33,852 nucleotides of DNA, from NCBI GenBank assembly GCA_026984515.1, contig JALSRZ010000168.1, positions 1 to 33,852 of the forward strand, in the 5' to 3' direction. Under the pieces are notes generated by a model. It was not told where the DNA came from. It made no database searches and was given only the letters and a program-made list of their open reading frames with translations. Every line of letters starts with the position of its first letter. Position 1 is the first letter of the stretch. The stretch is from Thiohalobacter sp. (GTDB lineage: Bacteria > Pseudomonadota > Gammaproteobacteria > DSM-19610). A program made the translations under genes and the position numbers. Positions 115-18,296 of the stretch are shown here, one piece after another.

Positions 115-318
115 CTAGCGGTGCGAGCCCTTTTCGGCGTGGGCTATATCCACCAGTTTAATCGCCAGCTCATTATACTGCTGCCGGTAGCTGGCCAGCG
201 GATGACCTTCCGGGGCTTTAAAGTACTCTTCCTGCGAGACGCCGTTTGCATGCTCATACTCGATGAACTTTTTCTGCATCTCGAGCATTTTACTGATCAT
301 CTCCTGCTTTTCGCTCAT
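115..318 (-). CDS. Small conserved-looking protein of unknown function (67 aa)
   Basis: A short, charged, soluble protein with no cysteine, signal peptide or membrane segment. It looks mostly helical, with a heptad-like N-terminal half containing MISKMLEMQKKFIEYE. I chose the ATG at 318 rather than the upstream in-frame ATG at 342 because GGAGG lies about eight bases before 318 on the minus strand, while 342 has no ribosome-binding site. It is the last gene of the minus-strand group, 146 bases after the cysteine-less DsrC paralogue, and may have its own promoter in that gap. I do not recognise the family. The coding reading is supported by the clean Shine-Dalgarno site and normal amino-acid composition. 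Its position in the dsr neighbourhood suggests, but does not show, a role in sulfur metabolism. Confidence 0.6.
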   Translation of the reverse strand: MSEKQEMISKMLEMQKKFIEYEHANGVSQEEYFKAPEGHPLASYRQQYNELAIKLVDIAHAEKGSHR

Positions 319-372
319 GGTTTTTACCTCCAAAGCGTTCATTCAAAAGGCGTGCGCCGCACGATGATTGCT

Positions 373-464: not shown

Positions 465-803
465 TTAGTAACCACCCTTGCGGGTGCTCTGCGGCAAACC
501 GGCGATCTTGCGCCCCTGTTTGCTGGGCATACCCGGGAACATGCTGTACATGAGCTTGCTGGTGGGCTTGTCACCCCATTTTTTGGCCATCGCCTTAAGA
601 ATGGTGCGCTCGTTGGGCTCCACCCCCCCGTTGTTGTAGTGCTCATCACGCAGGTAATTCACTACATCCCAGTGTTTTTCCGTCATTTCCAGCTTGTCCG
701 CATCGGCGATGGCCTGTCCGACGGCCTCCGTCCAGTCATCCATGTTCACCAGGTAACCATTTTCTGTGGTTTCGATGGTTTTACCGTCGACTTCGAGTGC
801 CAT
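465..803 (-). CDS. DsrC/TusE-family protein lacking both redox cysteines (RspA-like)
   Basis: A 112-residue paralogue of the DsrC encoded at 6807. It shares the MA(L/I)EV-GKT start, the HW-V-N-LR core and the C-terminal arm KQxxKxAGLP. DsrC carries Cys98 and the penultimate Cys109; here the aligned residues are Arg98 and Lys109, and the protein ends KGGY with no cysteine at all. It therefore cannot form the DsrC trisulfide or the TusE persulfide. Family members without either cysteine have been called RspA in the literature and proposed to be regulatory. The start has an ACGGAG site. It lies 58 bases downstream of the cas6-like gene on the same strand, probably in one transcript. A role in binding DNA or Dsr partners is inference. 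Confidence 0.88.
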   Translation of the reverse strand: MALEVDGKTIETTENGYLVNMDDWTEAVGQAIADADKLEMTEKHWDVVNYLRDEHYNNGGVEPNERTILKAMAKKWGDKPTSKLMYSMFPGMPSKQGRKIAGLPQSTRKGGY

Positions 804-861: not shown

Positions 862-1572
862 TCAGGTTTTTTTGTCCGCGCTCATCTGGTGTACCGCGCG
901 AATCCCCTTGTGGGGAATAAACAGCCCGCAACCGATTTTCTTGTGCTGACCGATGCCGCTTTGCTGCAGGGCAACCGCCTCTTCCACATCCAGGTCCGCC
1001 AGCATGACGCTGCGCGTATACAGCTCACCATCGGGGTGCTGCAGCGCGTGCGTACGGCCGCATAACAGTTTGCGAACCCGGATATCCAGGTTCTTCAACT
1101 CCTGCGCGGTATAGTCCATGAATGCCGACTCATCCTCGTGGTCCACCCCTTCGGGCACGACCACGTAGCGGGCAAACTGCGTGGACAGCGTGCTAAACAG
1201 TTTCACCTTTGCCTTGCCAACCTCCAGGCGATGACCCTCGATATCCAGTTCCCTGCCCGCCAGGGCACTGGCCTCGTCGATCCGGTGCCGGGGCACACGC
1301 AGGGTCATGCGTGATCGTTTCGACAGGTACAGCAGCTCGTTTTCGGGATCCTCGGGACGCATCCAGCCATTACCGGATTCCGCGCCGTGGATCAGGTGGA
1401 TACCGGCCTGCGGTTCACCCTCCATCCAGGGGAGCGCGGCCAGCACCGCCGTGGAAAAAGCATAGGCATGATCCAGCGGCAGACATTTGCAGCGGATGTT
1501 GTAGACCAGGTCCACGACATCGTCCGGCACCGTGTAGGGTGCGTTTTCGTCTTTTTCCTCTTCCCAGAACAC
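862..1572 (-). CDS. Orphan Cas6/Cmx6-like CRISPR RNA endonuclease homologue
   Basis: A 236-residue protein resembling the Cas6/Cmx6 branch of CRISPR repeat endonucleases. Visible signatures are the N-terminal LPLDHAYAFS segment (His34, the position of a conserved family His), a central LLYLSKRSRM strand, and a C-terminal glycine-rich loop GIGQHKKIGCG (Gly206, 208, 214, 216) followed by LFIPHKGI, typical of Cas6 RAMP folds. Length matches Cmx6. Cas6 enzymes bind a stem-loop repeat and cut at its base. No cas gene and no repeat-spacer array is seen in this window, so a CRISPR role is unsupported here. The start is GTG with GAGGT eight bases upstream, 11 bases after the 64-aa gene, so the genes are probably co-transcribed. 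Family call is from motif recognition; function in this setting is unknown. Confidence 0.78.
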   Translation of the reverse strand: MFWEEEKDENAPYTVPDDVVDLVYNIRCKCLPLDHAYAFSTAVLAALPWMEGEPQAGIHLIHGAESGNGWMRPEDPENELLYLSKRSRMTLRVPRHRIDEASALAGRELDIEGHRLEVGKAKVKLFSTLSTQFARYVVVPEGVDHEDESAFMDYTAQELKNLDIRVRKLLCGRTHALQHPDGELYTRSVMLADLDVEEAVALQQSGIGQHKKIGCGLFIPHKGIRAVHQMSADKKT

Positions 1573-1583
1573 GGTCGCAGACC

Positions 1584-1778
1584 TCAGCGTCTGCCGGCGG
1601 CGGCAAACGCTGCCTCGAGCCGGTCTTCCCAGCTCTCCGGGGTGTCGGGGAACGGCGGACGCACATCCATCTGGAAAAACAGCTCGCCGCCACGCGCTTT
1701 TTTCTCGACCAGCTCTACCAGCTCATCGAAGTTCTCGAGCTCATGGTGCTGCAACAGTATTTCACTCAAACAAAGCAT
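1584..1778 (-). CDS. Small acidic protein of unknown function (64 aa)
   Basis: A compact 64-residue acidic protein, probably helical, with LENFDELVELVEKKARGG followed by FFQMDVRPPFPDTPESWEDRL. No cysteines, membrane segments or known motif. It lies between the dioxygenase (five bases upstream) and the Cas6-like gene (11 bases downstream) in the same orientation, so it reads as a true operon member rather than a chance frame. Its Shine-Dalgarno is weak, which with the short spacing suggests translational coupling to the dioxygenase. Not recognised. A partner or adaptor of the neighbouring enzymes would be a reasonable guess, but nothing in the sequence proves it. Confidence 0.6.
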   Translation of the reverse strand: MLCLSEILLQHHELENFDELVELVEKKARGGELFFQMDVRPPFPDTPESWEDRLEAAFAAAGRR

Positions 1779-1783
1779 CGTGT

Positions 1784-2707
1784 TTACCCGTTGAAACCGG
1801 CTGTTGAAGCCCGGTCAAAATAGCGTGCCCGGTACAGCAGACGACCGGCATCGCCGTCATGGCTGAATGGTGTCCGGCAATGCAACACATTATTGCTGAC
1901 GACACCCTGCCCGGCTTCCAGCCGGTGCCGAAATATATAGGGCGAACCGACCTGAAACAAGTTCAGCAGGAAATCCGCAGCCGCGCGCGTGACCGGATCA
2001 TCCTTCCAGACGATGTTGCGGGTGCGTGCCGAGTAGCGCATGTGCAGGTGACCATCAGCGTCGATCGAAAACACCGGCCCGCCCTGTTCGGGACGTATTT
2101 CCACACCCCCCTGGACATTCGCCGGGATGGTCATGGCATCGCCGGCCATCAGTGCACGTACATAGTCCGGGTTTTCATCGCGCAGCAGAATATAAGCGAT
2201 TTCGTGATCCATGAAGGCGTTTTCCCCACCCTCGCGCGCGGGTCGCACACAATGCAGGATGACGCCACGAACCTGCTCCTGCGGCCGGTTATAGTAGCCG
2301 TCGGTGTGCCAGTTGAGGCGCTGGTTAGTGTAGGGGATGTATTCCCCCGGGCGCCGTTCTGTCACTACGCGCAGTGTGGTAATGCTGTCTTCATCCGCGC
2401 ACAGGTTATTGTCCAGCCGCTCCAGCCCCAGCCGACGGCCAAACCGGCGTATCAGCTGCTTGTCCTGCCCGGCGTCCGGGCCGAAACGGTAGATCACCAT
2501 GTTAGCGCGCTGCAGCCGCCCCGCGAGTGCGGCCTGTTCTGCAGCATCCGGGCAGGCCGGGTCACGCAGTTCCACCATCAGCTCGTCGACAGCAGTCGGC
2601 GCCCGCTCCAGTTTGCGGTCCCGCCAGGCGCGATAGGCACCATCCGCGGCCAGGCAGAACGGGCTGTTCGGACCAGGTTTCGTGATCACCCCGCCACTCG
2701 ATATCAT
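1784..2707 (-). CDS. TauD/TfdA-family Fe(II)/2-oxoglutarate-dependent dioxygenase
   Basis: A 307-residue cytoplasmic oxygenase of the TauD/TfdA/gamma-butyrobetaine hydroxylase superfamily. The iron facial triad is readable: HxD in NWHTDG (His134, Asp136) and the distal His276 in VVSNNVLHCRTPF. The 2-oxoglutarate-binding arginine lies in LLYRARYFDR near residue 293. Such enzymes hydroxylate a substrate with O2 and 2-oxoglutarate; the substrate here cannot be told. I chose the ATG at 2707, because GGAG sits six bases upstream; the GTG at 2710 would leave only three bases. It heads the minus-strand operon facing dsrA, with a candidate extended -10 promoter just upstream. A role in organosulfur or sulfonate chemistry is possible given the context but is inference. 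Confidence 0.85.
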   Translation of the reverse strand: MISSGGVITKPGPNSPFCLAADGAYRAWRDRKLERAPTAVDELMVELRDPACPDAAEQAALAGRLQRANMVIYRFGPDAGQDKQLIRRFGRRLGLERLDNNLCADEDSITTLRVVTERRPGEYIPYTNQRLNWHTDGYYNRPQEQVRGVILHCVRPAREGGENAFMDHEIAYILLRDENPDYVRALMAGDAMTIPANVQGGVEIRPEQGGPVFSIDADGHLHMRYSARTRNIVWKDDPVTRAAADFLLNLFQVGSPYIFRHRLEAGQGVVSNNVLHCRTPFSHDGDAGRLLYRARYFDRASTAGFNG

Positions 2708-2743
2708 CACGCACTCCGCAGGCGTCTGTTCACCGAAGCGAAA

Positions 2744-2921: not shown

Positions 2922-3180
2922 CCGCGCATAGTCAGGTTTTATCTATCCCCAAAGAGATAGCGCAGGGGTAGCGGAACACCCCAAGGGTAGGATTCTCGGA
3001 ACCCGTTCAGGCTCCTAGACTGCTACTGGCTTGATGAGTGGGTTCCACGTATCTGTATCCTGCCGTATGGATACGGGAACTGCGGCTCGAAATACCGTAC
3101 CTTGAAATTTTGGCACTACAACACGGCGCTGCCGAACGTACGCGGCAACCGCCACTCGACAAAACTGGAAGGAGATGGCC
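2922..3180 (+). promoter_or_regulatory. Long structured 5' leader of dsrA (possible cis-regulatory RNA)
   Basis: The predicted dsrA leader contains a run of hairpins: CTATC/GATAG (2943-2947 with 2956-2960), GGGGT/ACCCC (2965-2969 with 2978-2982), a long-range GGAACCC/GGGTTCC (2998-3004 with 3040-3046), GTATCC/GGATAC (3055-3060 with 3069-3074) and GCCG/CGGC (3131-3134 with 3143-3146). The fourth overlaps a palindrome CCGTAT-GG-ATACGG (3063-3076) that could pair in its place, as in a switch. I do not recognise a known riboswitch class, and no credible open reading frame fills it. The Shine-Dalgarno GGAG (3171-3174) lies at its end. Confidence 0.4.
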
Positions 3181-4437
3181 ATGGCTGACAAGCATTACCC
3201 AACGCCTATGCTCGACGAACTGGAAAACGGCCCCTGGCCGAGTTTTATTTCCGGGATCAAGCGACTGCGCGATGATCACCCGGATGAGCGTATCCGTAAA
3301 GTAACCGACTCCCTGCTGGGCCAGCTCGAACATTCCTATGAAACCCGCAAGGGCTACTGGAAAGGCGGTACGGTATCGGTATTCGGTTATGGCGGCGGCA
3401 TCATCCCGCGTTTCTCGGAAGTCGGTGACGCTTTCCCCGAATCCAAGGAATTCCATACCCTGCGTGTACAGCCTACTCCGGCCAACTACTACACGACCGA
3501 CATGCTGCGCAAACTGGGCGACAGCTGGGAGAAATGGGGTTCCGGCCTGCAGACCTTCCACGGCCAGACCGGTAATATCATGTTCATCGGTACCACGACC
3601 GAAAACACCCAGCACTTCTTTGACGAGATCAACGAGTACGGCTGGGACCTCGGTGGTGCCGGCCCCTGTGTGCGTACCGCCATGTCCTGTGTCGGTGCCG
3701 CGCGTTGCGAAATGTCCTGCGCCAACGAGCACGCCATTCACCGCCACCTGGTAAACAACTTCACCGATGACGTACATCGCCCGGCCCTGCCCTACAAGTT
3801 CAAGTTCAAGGTATCCGGTTGTCCGAACGACTGCCAGAACTCCATCGAACGTTCCGACTTCGCCGTCATCGGCACCTGGCGCGACGACATGAAAGTCGAC
3901 CAGGAAGAGATCAAGGCCTACGTCGCCAAGAAAGGGCGCCAGTACATCATCGACAACGTCACCACGCGTTGCCCGACCCAGGCCCTGACCCTGAACGACG
4001 ACGACACCCTGACCGTCGACAACCACAACTGTGTACGCTGCATGCACTGCCTGAACGTCATGCCCAAGGCACTGCACCCCGGTGACGACCGTGGTGTCAC
4101 CATCCTGATCGGCGGCAAGCGCACCCTGAAGATCGGTGACCTGATGGGCACCGTGGTCGTACCGTTCAAGAAGCTGGAAACCGAGGAAGACTACGAGTCC
4201 CTGGTCGAGCTGGCGGAAGAAATCATCGATTTCTGGGCCGAGAACGGACTGGAGCACGAACGCTGCGGCGAAATGATCGAGCGTATCGGCCTGGTGAACT
4301 TCCTCGAAGGTATCGGCGTTGAGGTTGACCCGAACATGGTCAACAACCCGCGTCAGTCTTCCTACGTCCGCATGGACGGCTGGGACGAAGAAGCCGAGAA
4401 GTGGTTCGCACGCCAGGCTGAAAAAGCCAGCGCCTGA
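3181..4437 (+). CDS. dsrA: Reverse-type dissimilatory sulfite reductase alpha subunit
   Basis: DsrA of the cytoplasmic alpha2beta2 sirohaem sulfite reductase, which in sulfur oxidisers works in the oxidative direction on sulfur bound to DsrC. The 418-residue length is normal. Sirohaem-[4Fe-4S] ligands are Cys170, Cys176, Cys214 and Cys218 (CX5C and CX3C), matching the spacing in Desulfovibrio DsrA. The inserted ferredoxin domain has Cys264 and a CVRCMHC cluster (Cys284, 287, 290). I chose the ATG at 3181, six bases after GGAG; the ATG at 3175 directly abuts that site. First gene of the dsr operon, preceded by a long leader. The reverse (oxidative) assignment rests on the downstream dsrEFH and dsrL genes and the absence of dsrD. 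Confidence 0.98.
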   Translation: MADKHYPTPMLDELENGPWPSFISGIKRLRDDHPDERIRKVTDSLLGQLEHSYETRKGYWKGGTVSVFGYGGGIIPRFSEVGDAFPESKEFHTLRVQPTPANYYTTDMLRKLGDSWEKWGSGLQTFHGQTGNIMFIGTTTENTQHFFDEINEYGWDLGGAGPCVRTAMSCVGAARCEMSCANEHAIHRHLVNNFTDDVHRPALPYKFKFKVSGCPNDCQNSIERSDFAVIGTWRDDMKVDQEEIKAYVAKKGRQYIIDNVTTRCPTQALTLNDDDTLTVDNHNCVRCMHCLNVMPKALHPGDDRGVTILIGGKRTLKIGDLMGTVVVPFKKLETEEDYESLVELAEEIIDFWAENGLEHERCGEMIERIGLVNFLEGIGVEVDPNMVNNPRQSSYVRMDGWDEEAEKWFARQAEKASA

Positions 4438-4477
4438 ACCACGCCGGTTTATTCACACCGGCAAAAACATTCTGGTT

Positions 4478-4501
4478 CCGGGGCGGGTTTGCCCGCCCCG
4501 G
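4478..4501 (+). other. Strong intercistronic hairpin between dsrA and dsrB
   Basis: A perfect ten-base-pair stem CCGGGGCGGG/CCCGCCCCGG with a TTTG loop lies in the 101-base dsrA-dsrB gap. A smaller hairpin GCCGGT/ACCGGC (4443-4462) precedes it. No U-run follows, so it is more likely an mRNA-stabilising or processing element than a terminator. Confidence 0.6.
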
Positions 4502-4538
4502 CCAGCATTAGACAGCACTCATTTTTTGGGAGAGTAAT

Positions 4539-7139: not shown

Positions 7140-7164
7140 AGGGCAGCACCTGTATGTAGTCGTT

Positions 7165-7187
7165 GTGGGGGAGCCCGCCTCCCCCAC
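7165..7187 (+). other. Strong hairpin between dsrC and dsrM
   Basis: A perfect nine-base-pair stem GTGGGGGAG/CTCCCCCAC with a five-base loop, followed by GCTTTG without a proper U-run. It may protect the 3' end of an abundant dsrC message or act as a partial attenuator in front of the membrane-complex genes. Confidence 0.55.
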
Positions 7188-7221
7188 GCTTTGAACACCC
7201 GTAGCAAAAGGAGAGTGAAGC

Positions 7222-15966: not shown

Positions 15967-17637
15967 GTGAATCCGGATTACCGCGCTAAAGGCGAGTTGG
16001 ACTACCTTGCTGCCGGGCAAAACGAGCGCCAGCGCCGCCTGCACCTGCTGGACTGGCCAACCACGCGCCAGTTCCTGCGCGCGCTGTCCGCGCTTGGCAT
16101 CCTGCTGTTCATCCTTGGCATACTGAATATCTGGTTTTACCTGTCTTCACCCACCGGCAGCTGGTTACACCTCGCCAACAGCATATTACTGATCGGCGGT
16201 GTCCTGTTGCTGTCTTTCGCCGTATACAGTGCGCGACGCGATTTCCTCACGCCCCTGACTGAAATGCGTGACTGGGTAAAACAGATGCGCAACGGCCACC
16301 TGAGTGCACGCCTGCCACATTCGCCGCAACCAGATTTCAGCACCCTGTACCAGGACATCAACCTGCTGGGCGAACGCCTCGAATCCCTGTCCAGCGACCT
16401 CCAGTCCGAAGTGGAAAAACAGACCAACCGCATCCAGCAGAAAACCCACTCCCTGGAAATCCTCTACGACGTTGCCGCCAACATCAACGCCGCCCGCGAC
16501 CTGGAAGACCTGCTGACCCGCTTCCTGCATACGCTCAAGGATGTGGTTGCTGCACGCGCAGGCACGGTGCGCATGCTGACACCGGACGGCAACATGAAAC
16601 TGATCGCCAGCAGCGGTCTCAGCCCGGAAGTGGTCGAACAGGAGCAACTCATCAGCGTGGATCGCTGCCTGTGCGGCAAGGCCGCACAACAGGGCGAAGT
16701 CTATGCGCTCGACAAGCTGGACAGCTGCAACCAGTTTGCCGGCCGACCGTTTTTCGACAACGGTAACATCGAAATGGTAGCGGTACCACTGCGCTACCGG
16801 GGACAGGTACTGGGCGTGTACAACCTGTTTACCGAACAACACGGCCTGGTCGAGCGCGAGGACATGAAAAACCTGCTCACCAGCATCGGTCACCACCTGG
16901 GCATGGCTATCGAAAAATCCCGCCTGGATGAAGAAGCCAACCTGTTGTCGATCATGGAAGAGCGCACACGCCTGGCCAATGAACTGCACGACTCGCTGGC
17001 GCAGAGTCTGGCCAGTCTCAAATTCCAGGTGCGCGTCCTCGATGAACTGCTGCACAGCGGCTCGGAAGCGGCGCTGTGGCAGGAAATGGAACTGATCGAG
17101 AACAGCCTGGACGAAGCCTATACCGAGTTACGAGAGCTGATTGCGCACTTCCGGGCACCGGTGGACAAACGCGGTCTGCTGCCCGCAGTCGAACAGGCCG
17201 TGGAACGCTTCCGGCGCAACTCCGGCATCAGCGCTTTTCTGCAGATCGAATGGGATGGTGTAAACCTGCCCGCCGAAGTGGAAATCCAGGTATTGCGCAT
17301 CATCCAGGAGGCACTGGCCAATATCCGTAAACACAGTGAGGCCAATGCCGTGCGCGTCATGCTGCGTTCGGGGGACGACAGGCATTACATGATACTGATC
17401 GAGGATGACGGCATCGGCATCCAGAGCAGGGTACTGGACAGTGGTCCCGGCGAACACCTTGGCCTGAAGATCATGCAGGAACGCGCCACCCGCATTGGTG
17501 GCGAACTGAAAATTGAAAGTGACAGCGGTGAAGGTACACGCATTATCCTAAGTTTCCCCCACGATGTGGGTGTGGGCCTGCCCGCACAGACGGTTACGGT
17601 GGAACCACCGGTGGTGCACACGGTGAGCGGATCATGA
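15967..17637 (+). CDS. NarX-like membrane sensor histidine kinase (HAMP-GAF-HisKA_3)
   Basis: Sensor kinase of the NarX/NreB class, 556 residues from the GTG at 15967. That start has GAGG five bases upstream; the GTG at 15946 has none. Two membrane helices (about 36-56 and 69-88) leave only a short periplasmic loop, so the roughly 110-residue nitrate-sensing domain of true NarX is missing. A HAMP linker, a coiled coil, and a GAF-like domain with a Cys cluster (CLCG at 234-236 and Cys254) follow. Next come the phosphoacceptor His341 in NELHDSLAQSL and an HATPase with EDDGIGI and GLKIMQERA. Its gene overlaps the response regulator gene by four bases. Being next to dsrNR it may sense redox or sulfur state, which is inference. 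Confidence 0.88.
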   Translation: MNPDYRAKGELDYLAAGQNERQRRLHLLDWPTTRQFLRALSALGILLFILGILNIWFYLSSPTGSWLHLANSILLIGGVLLLSFAVYSARRDFLTPLTEMRDWVKQMRNGHLSARLPHSPQPDFSTLYQDINLLGERLESLSSDLQSEVEKQTNRIQQKTHSLEILYDVAANINAARDLEDLLTRFLHTLKDVVAARAGTVRMLTPDGNMKLIASSGLSPEVVEQEQLISVDRCLCGKAAQQGEVYALDKLDSCNQFAGRPFFDNGNIEMVAVPLRYRGQVLGVYNLFTEQHGLVEREDMKNLLTSIGHHLGMAIEKSRLDEEANLLSIMEERTRLANELHDSLAQSLASLKFQVRVLDELLHSGSEAALWQEMELIENSLDEAYTELRELIAHFRAPVDKRGLLPAVEQAVERFRRNSGISAFLQIEWDGVNLPAEVEIQVLRIIQEALANIRKHSEANAVRVMLRSGDDRHYMILIEDDGIGIQSRVLDSGPGEHLGLKIMQERATRIGGELKIESDSGEGTRIILSFPHDVGVGLPAQTVTVEPPVVHTVSGS

Positions 17638-18296
17638 CGCTGCGGGTATTGCTGATCGACGACCACACCCTGTTCCGGGTCGGACTGGAGGGCCTGCTGG
17701 CACACCGCAATATCGATGTCATCGCTTCCATTGGCGATGGCCGCGAAGGCCTGCAGTGTGCAGCCGACCTGAAACCGGACATCGTCCTGCTGGACATGCG
17801 CATGCCGGACATCAACGGTATCGGGGTACTGAAAAAACTGCGCGAGTCCGGTTTTCAAAACCCTGTCGTGATGCTTACCACCAGTACCGACGAACACGAC
17901 CTGGTGGAGTCCCTGCGCAACGGCGCCCAGGGCTACCTGCTCAAGGACATGGAACCCGACGAGCTGGTGCTGGCGCTACGGGATATCGTTTCCGGGAAAA
18001 CCGTGGTAGCGCCCGATCTTGCCCCGGTACTGGCCAAGGTAGTCCAGGGTGACGGCACGCTGCTGGATGAATCCTCCCCCTTCGACGAACTGACGCCGCG
18101 CGAAAGCGAAATTCTCAGCCTGCTGGCGGAAGGCCAGAGCAACAAGGTGATCGCACGCAACCTGGGTATTTCCGACGGCACGGTAAAACTGCACGTAAAA
18201 GCCATACTGCGCAAACTGGGCGTCCACTCCCGTGTCGAAGCGGCTGTCATGGCCGTAGAGCAGGGACAACGCAGCAACCGCAATGCGGCCAGCTGA
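17634..18296 (+). CDS. NarL/FixJ-family response regulator
   Basis: Cognate regulator of the upstream kinase: 220 residues with a receiver domain (Asp9, Asp10, phosphoacceptor Asp54, Thr82/83, Lys104) and a C-terminal LuxR-type helix-turn-helix (LTPRESEILSLLAEGQSNKVIARNLGIS split across two helices, residues about 150-200). The ATGA overlap with the kinase gene shows translational coupling. The target genes are not known; the dsr promoter is an obvious candidate. I do not assign the name narL because no nitrate respiration genes are seen nearby. Confidence 0.92.
   Translation: MTLRVLLIDDHTLFRVGLEGLLAHRNIDVIASIGDGREGLQCAADLKPDIVLLDMRMPDINGIGVLKKLRESGFQNPVVMLTTSTDEHDLVESLRNGAQGYLLKDMEPDELVLALRDIVSGKTVVAPDLAPVLAKVVQGDGTLLDESSPFDELTPRESEILSLLAEGQSNKVIARNLGISDGTVKLHVKAILRKLGVHSRVEAAVMAVEQGQRSNRNAAS

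Follow-up and report, generated by a model that had tools for sequence, protein, structure and literature searches.

The gene at 862-1572 of the window (the whole 33,852-nt stretch analyzed here, contig JALSRZ010000168.1 of Thiohalobacter sp.) encodes a Cas6-family protein that appears, at a rough probability of 0.6, to have been domesticated out of CRISPR as a fixed accessory of the reverse dissimilatory sulfite reductase (rDsr) gene set of Gammaproteobacteria, where it would act on hairpin RNA together with the DsrC paralogue encoded beside it. A sequence-only reading of the same DNA had offered two ideas for this gene, a Cas6-fold RNase recruited to a non-CRISPR role in sulfur oxidizers and a scavenged remnant. 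The former is strongly upheld by a very tight co-occurrence with dsrA, a conserved genomic place, the lack of a link to Cas1, preserved active-site residues and purifying selection; because the active-site residues are kept, we infer that an activity on RNA, presumably RNase action, was kept with them.

A conserved gene set divergent from dsr

As that reading had described, the gene is co-oriented with genes for a TauD-type dioxygenase, a 64-aa protein and a cysteine-less DsrC paralogue, all divergent from the dsr operon, and a 75-aa gene can now be added to the set:

115-342, minus strand: 75-aa conserved protein of no known family, last gene of the set, with homologues in 30 of 61 loci
465-803, minus strand: cysteine-less, RspA-like DsrC paralogue, the next gene downstream of cas6 (PF04358, E 3.8e-31; TIGR03342)
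862-1572, minus strand: orphan Cas6/Cmx6-family protein, 236 aa, GTG start (profiles, structural model and alignments)
1584-1778, minus strand: 64-aa conserved protein of no known family, present in 46 of 61 compared loci
1784-2710, minus strand: TauD/TfdA-family 2-oxoglutarate Fe(II) dioxygenase, which heads the set (PF02668, E 2.5e-24)
3181-4437, plus strand: dsrA, first gene of the reverse-type dsr operon, which runs divergently (TIGR02064, 657 bits at 3211-4422; tblastn and ORF order)

Following dsrA, the genes dsrBEFHCMK extend up to 9528 in the direction opposite to the cas6 set. We surveyed 60 further loci, one per genome, and found the order dsrM-C-H-F-E-B-A / tauD-like, 64-aa, cas6, DsrC paralogue, 75-aa almost unchanged in about 50 of them, with an unnamed protein of ~240 aa between the 64-aa gene and cas6 in 21. 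The layout is kept even in genomes of 1.0-1.1 Mb in which most intergenic gaps are about zero (L105, L109 and L112). In three dsr-positive genomes of 1.4-1.6 Mb (L106-L108), cas6 is not at dsr but next to rnc, era and recO, the RNase III gene there being confirmed by TIGR02191. The neighborhood survey that the sequence-only reading had called for thus shows linkage to dsr in nearly all related genomes.

Among the partner genes, 127 of 129 TauD-family homologues preserve the HTD motif and all 129 the His motif at the C terminus, while the 64-aa protein gave zero matches in Pfam or NCBIfam. The C-terminal Cys pair of DsrC occurs in none of 98 distinct cas6-adjacent paralogues, 84 of which have no Cys at all, as against 96 of 99 DsrC proteins of the dsr operons. 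Membership in the DsrC family without this pair is what defines a cysteine-less DsrC-type regulator, and by its sequence the gene at 465-803 belongs in that class; since it is devoid of the sulfur-carrying cysteines, it is probably regulatory. Such regulators we take to be what is called the RspA type, and the cas6-adjacent gene is a paralogue of this kind; the literature searched holds no link of a cysteine-less DsrC with a Cas6-type protein.

A few kb past the cas6 set we also observed an Alvin_2107-family globule sulfur oxidation protein (NF049856; e.g. L066:675-923), and 2OG-Fe(II) dioxygenases of the PKHD type recur at a similar distance of a few kb in several loci, which suggests a more extensive conserved region for sulfur oxidation.

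Family membership, fold and conserved residues

The predicted Cas6/Cmx6-like reading frame proved to be real and its coordinates correct: its GTG coincides with the start conserved in the family (M1 and W3 in a 32-sequence alignment), and the protein matches the Pfam Cas6 profile PF09559 (E 7.8e-63, 212 bits against a cut-off of 26.7), the NCBIfam equivalog TIGR02807 (cas6_cmx6, type I-MYXAN; 122 bits against a cut-off of 98.85) and the PADLOC Cas6 models (E 1.7e-60). An AlphaFold2 model built from a 32-sequence alignment has a mean pLDDT of 91.5. All 45 Foldseek matches of this model at E<=0.001 were Cas6 chains or Cas6-containing entries, and in VIA-align it superposed on 8fcj_B with a Z of 24.2 and an rmsd of 2.0 over 196 aligned residues, and on many other Cas6 structures with Z of 10-17, the top rows being Cas6. 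The structure check proposed earlier therefore comes out in favor of Cas6, His35 included: the predicted structure has the tandem ferredoxin-like RAMP fold of this family.

Closest among solved folds is the Cas6 of a type I-B CRISPR-associated transposon (PDB 8fcj, 8fcu), which the profile also finds (E 8e-25); unlike the window protein, it is part of a Cascade-transposon complex, has no GNGWxRP segment and carries Asn in place of the His. The type I-MYXAN Cas6/Cmx6 proteins of cyanobacteria (TIGR02807; e.g. Gloeothece citriformis PCC 7424 pP742402) are homologous over most of their length at 20-25% identity.

Alignment of 61 dsr-linked proteins revealed the catalytic-type His35 in 60, the residues P48, R92, Q203, G208, G214 and G216 in all 61, and the glycines of the loop (G206/G208/G214/G216 in the window protein) in 60-61, so that the glycine-rich loop noted from the sequence is indeed there. 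Judged from the alignment, the protein has both hallmarks of the Cas6 family, an N-terminal catalytic-type His and a C-terminal glycine-rich loop. His35, P48, R92, Q203 and the loop glycines recur in six of six cyanobacterial Cas6/Cmx6 proteins, which also have R135 in common with the dsr-linked ones. To these the dsr-linked set adds W3, GNGWxRP, R86, E148, K168, G172, R187 and K222, of which W3, GNGWxRP, E148, K168, R187 and K222, along with the dsr neighbors and a clade of their own, set these proteins apart from the cyanobacterial ones. The GNGWxRP insertion (residues 67-73) is specific to the main dsr-linked clade and missing from four distant members of the class (28-36% identity). His35 is replaced in two dsr-linked members, L092 and L222, the latter one of the four distant ones, and catalysis may therefore be dispensable in some members.

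In a PMSF tree, which is unrooted and in which the CRISPR members are the six cyanobacterial proteins only, 65 dsr-linked Cas6 proteins split from these six at 100/99 support. Between the window and its nearest relative, dN/dS values are 0.11 (cas6), 0.17 (tauD-like gene) and 0.008 (dsrA), and the 64-aa protein and the DsrC paralogue show zero amino-acid changes; by this measure, cas6 is under purifying selection.

Distribution follows dsrA and not Cas1

Within the order, we detected a cas6 homologue in 20 of 20 sampled genomes, one copy being split over two contig ends. Across 369 sampled Gammaproteobacteria, 118 genomes from 86 of 271 genera carry a homologue (34-100% identity), nearly always as a single copy and with an open frame in nearly all. 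The same 369 genomes include 119 with dsrA (TIGR02064) and 136 with Cas1. Cas6 and dsrA occur together in 111, Cas6 only in 7, dsrA only in 8 and neither in 243, an odds ratio of 482 (Fisher p 7e-75) when genomes are treated as independent of kinship. For Cas6 and Cas1, with kinship likewise ignored, no association was found in these genomes (odds ratio 1.5, p 0.08): Cas1 is missing from 61 of the 111 genomes with both Cas6 and dsrA, and 51 of the 118 carriers do have it. CRISPR content was judged by Cas1 only in all genomes other than that of the window.

Upon inspection of the exceptions, five of the eight dsrA-only genomes proved to have contig breaks just upstream of dsrA or inside neighboring genes, one of these (G141) with the tauD-like and 64-aa genes still visible, and one of the Cas6-only genomes (G145) has a break inside its tauD-like gene. 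Contig edges look like the cause of many exceptions to the pairing, while G371 and G228 look like real absences of cas6 at the dsr locus.

In a second sample of 398 Pseudomonadota, five genomes have a PF09559 match; every one belongs to the window's class and has dsrA, and each of the five genes adjoins dsr, including those of the four distant members. None of the 48 dsrA genomes of other classes in this sample has a PF09559 match, and since dsr loci of those classes do without cas6, the gene is not required for rDsr as such. Thirteen of these 48 were inspected, and in four the tauD-like and 64-aa genes adjoin dsrA and are followed by a small protein at the cas6 position, which contains DUF6967 in three of three scanned. 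In the four distant members (L219-L222) and in L111, cas6 is immediately preceded by the same domain (PF22295), and at L221:8258-9115 the reading frame is open from the DUF6967 domain into Cas6. This arrangement of sequences suggests that DUF6967 and Cas6 may be physical partners. Phage records and viral contigs held no relatives of the window Cas6.

CRISPR context

Scanning the window for repeats turned up no CRISPR array, as the sequence-only reading had stated, yet a different contig of the genome (C135) does carry a complete type I-E CRISPR-Cas locus, with cas3, cas8e, cas7e, cas5e, cas6e, cas1e and an array of ~26 repeats at 61-nt spacing. A CRISPR-Cas locus in this genome that lacks its own Cas6 had been named as a finding that would count against a non-CRISPR role, and we looked for one. 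The type I-E locus has its own Cas6e between cas5e and cas1e (L223:7083-7757, E 3e-40 to 3e-39), so the gene at 862-1572 is not the missing part of that system.

Nor do the surroundings resemble type I-MYXAN, in which cas6 would stand beside cas3, cas8a1/cmx, cas7/devR and cas5/devS: in nearly all loci its neighbors are instead the tauD-like, 64-aa, DsrC-paralogue and 75-aa genes and the dsr genes. The array of such a system is likewise absent from the window, array-like repeats occur in only 2 of 161 scanned loci, and Cas1 is unassociated. By comparison, the cyanobacterial Cas6/Cmx6 operons contain cas3 and, where the stretch extends that far, cas8a1/cmx1 or cmx8 and cas5, and five of the six cyanobacterial genes adjoin other annotated cas genes. 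The homologue on the Gloeobacter morelensis plasmid pGMOR1 (L233) has no other annotated cas genes near it, its neighbors encoding a phosphoadenosine phosphosulfate reductase family protein and hypothetical proteins; it is possibly another non-CRISPR Cas6.

Regulatory sites and candidate RNA targets

Two stretches upstream of and within the predicted dsrA leader are relevant here:

2943-3021, plus strand: dsrA promoter region (conservation among dsrA upstream regions)
3040-3081, plus strand: hairpin within the 5′ leader predicted for dsrA, a candidate RNA substrate whose conservation is limited to the order

The promoter region comprises a TATCCC-n4-GGGATA-like palindrome (TATCCCAnnTGGGATA-like) at 2943-2960, a CACCCC..GGGTAGG block (CACCCCATGGGTAGGGT) at 2977-2993 and a -10-like TAGACT at 3016-3021. 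Of 96 non-redundant dsrA upstream regions, 52 contain both the palindrome and the CACCCCATGGGTAGGGT block, against none of the shuffles, and a TAnAnT box follows them in 51 of the 52. We had entertained a structured RNA for this element and dropped it, as a 7-2-7 palindrome ahead of a TAnAnT box fits DNA sites better; by their sequence, these look like sites at which a NarL/FixJ-type response regulator would control dsr. A NarL-like response regulator (228 bits to NF007935) is encoded at 17634-18296, downstream of dsr, and its cluster is also found near a few other cas6-dsr loci; from its family assignment, the protein is a candidate dsr regulator. Across the order, alignment shows a CCCATTGGGGATA block (403-420) and a conserved TATAGT-like box ahead of the 75-aa gene, and the resemblance of this block to the site upstream of dsrA means that the 75-aa gene may share the dsr regulator.

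For the leader hairpin at 3040-3081, 89.6% of cells in the alignment are paired, five cells over three pairs are changed on both sides, and the covariation score exceeds that of all 500 shuffles; outside the order, the hairpin is not general. Strong, conserved hairpins of varying sequence occur class-wide in the dsrA-dsrB (4438-4538) and dsrC-dsrM (7140-7221) gaps, with z near -5 in the order, a median z near -4 across loci, and z under -2 in 69% and 87% of loci, respectively. As obligatory Cas6 targets these were rejected, because they are missing in several Cas6 carriers (L109, L112, L219, L222 and others); their probable role is to control how dsr mRNA decays or is differentially expressed. 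We also considered the gap that separates cas6 from the DsrC paralogue, with its median length of 105 nt, as the site of an RNA element and set it aside, alignment and motif search having returned a ribosome binding site only. Rfam gave zero matches on the window at E<=1, and no universal RNA target for the dsr-linked Cas6 emerged among the leader, the intergenic hairpins and the cas6-DsrC gap.

Proposed role and competing explanations

Under the favored reading, a Cas6 protein would have left CRISPR to become a fixed accessory of the rDsr set, recognizing and cutting one or a few specific hairpin RNAs or binding them without release. Some Cas6 proteins are known to remain bound to their product. 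The likeliest target would be a dsr-related transcript, such as the dsrA leader or the transcript of the protein's own operon, on whose hairpin it would act by sequence-specific cutting or capping, and together with the adjacent DsrC paralogue it would adjust dsr expression to the supply of sulfur. For DsrC itself, binding to DNA upstream of the A. vinosum dsr cluster is reported in work cited in PMC5944118. That Cas6 and the cysteine-less DsrC form a dedicated module governing reverse-dsr by cutting dsr or related transcripts at lineage-specific hairpins is a more tentative proposal, to which we give slightly less than even odds.

A domesticated Cas6 may also have become purely an RNA-binding protein or scaffold that holds a structured RNA or a partner (the DsrC paralogue, the 64-aa protein or DUF6967) and cuts nothing. 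The replacement of His35 in L092 and L222, where fold family and loop stay, would fit this, as would the Asn that profile alignment places at the His position of the type I-B transposon protein; however, His35 is preserved in 60 of 61 main-clade proteins and in all six cyanobacterial relatives, more than a scaffold would lead one to expect, and we consider binding alone somewhat unlikely. It is far harder to credit that the protein serves a CRISPR-Cas system encoded elsewhere in the genome by processing its crRNA in trans. Its profile match to Cas6/Cmx6 and the Cas1 genes of 51 carriers would allow for such a service, but more than half of the dsrA carriers (61 of 111) have no Cas1, the gene tracks dsrA with no association to Cas1, and the type I-E system of the window's genome is equipped with its own Cas6e; the idea is largely refuted.

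The DsrC/TusE and DsrEFH/TusBCD families include the relay for tRNA 2-thiouridine, and this kinship, together with a dioxygenase of intact HxD motif in the gene set, could place Cas6, the DsrC/TusE-like paralogue and the TauD-like enzyme in RNA modification or tRNA thiolation rather than mRNA processing. We judge this improbable, given that the cas6-adjacent DsrC paralogue is without the Cys pair for sulfur relay in all cases and that the tauD-like and 64-aa genes adjoin dsr in other classes where there is no Cas6. As for the scavenged remnant, a functionless cas gene riding with the dsr cluster, nothing speaks for it except the absence of a known function; a dN/dS of 0.11, a frame open in nearly all genomes and retention in 1.0-1.1 Mb genomes where most genes nearly abut refute it, and its chances are negligible. 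Domestication into the rDsr set is thus the reading we retain.

Significance

Exaptation of CRISPR parts is already known from the myxobacterial dev operon, type IV systems, Streptomyces I-E derivatives and scaRNA (PMC8730458), and the dsr-linked Cas6 resembles these in being reused outside adaptive immunity. Whereas the earlier examples retain several cas genes or an RNA derived from repeats, the dsr-linked Cas6 stands alone, in an energy-metabolism set and class-wide. Searches of open-access literature turned up no Cas6-dsr link, papers that mention both treating each separately, and no orphan Cas6 with dsr or TIGR02807/Cmx6 in that sense.

For annotation, a protein labeled as type I-MYXAN Cas6/Cmx6 is, in Gammaproteobacteria, a near-constant marker of reverse-dsr sulfur oxidation, which corrects a family-wide misreading; CRISPR surveys would otherwise count defense genes that are not there. 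The family presents a clear example of one Cas protein taken into metabolic service throughout a class, and it raises the question of how sulfur oxidizers regulate their central energy pathway. Should the Cas6-DsrC module prove true, this would be the first CRISPR RNase known as a core component of an energy-metabolism pathway.
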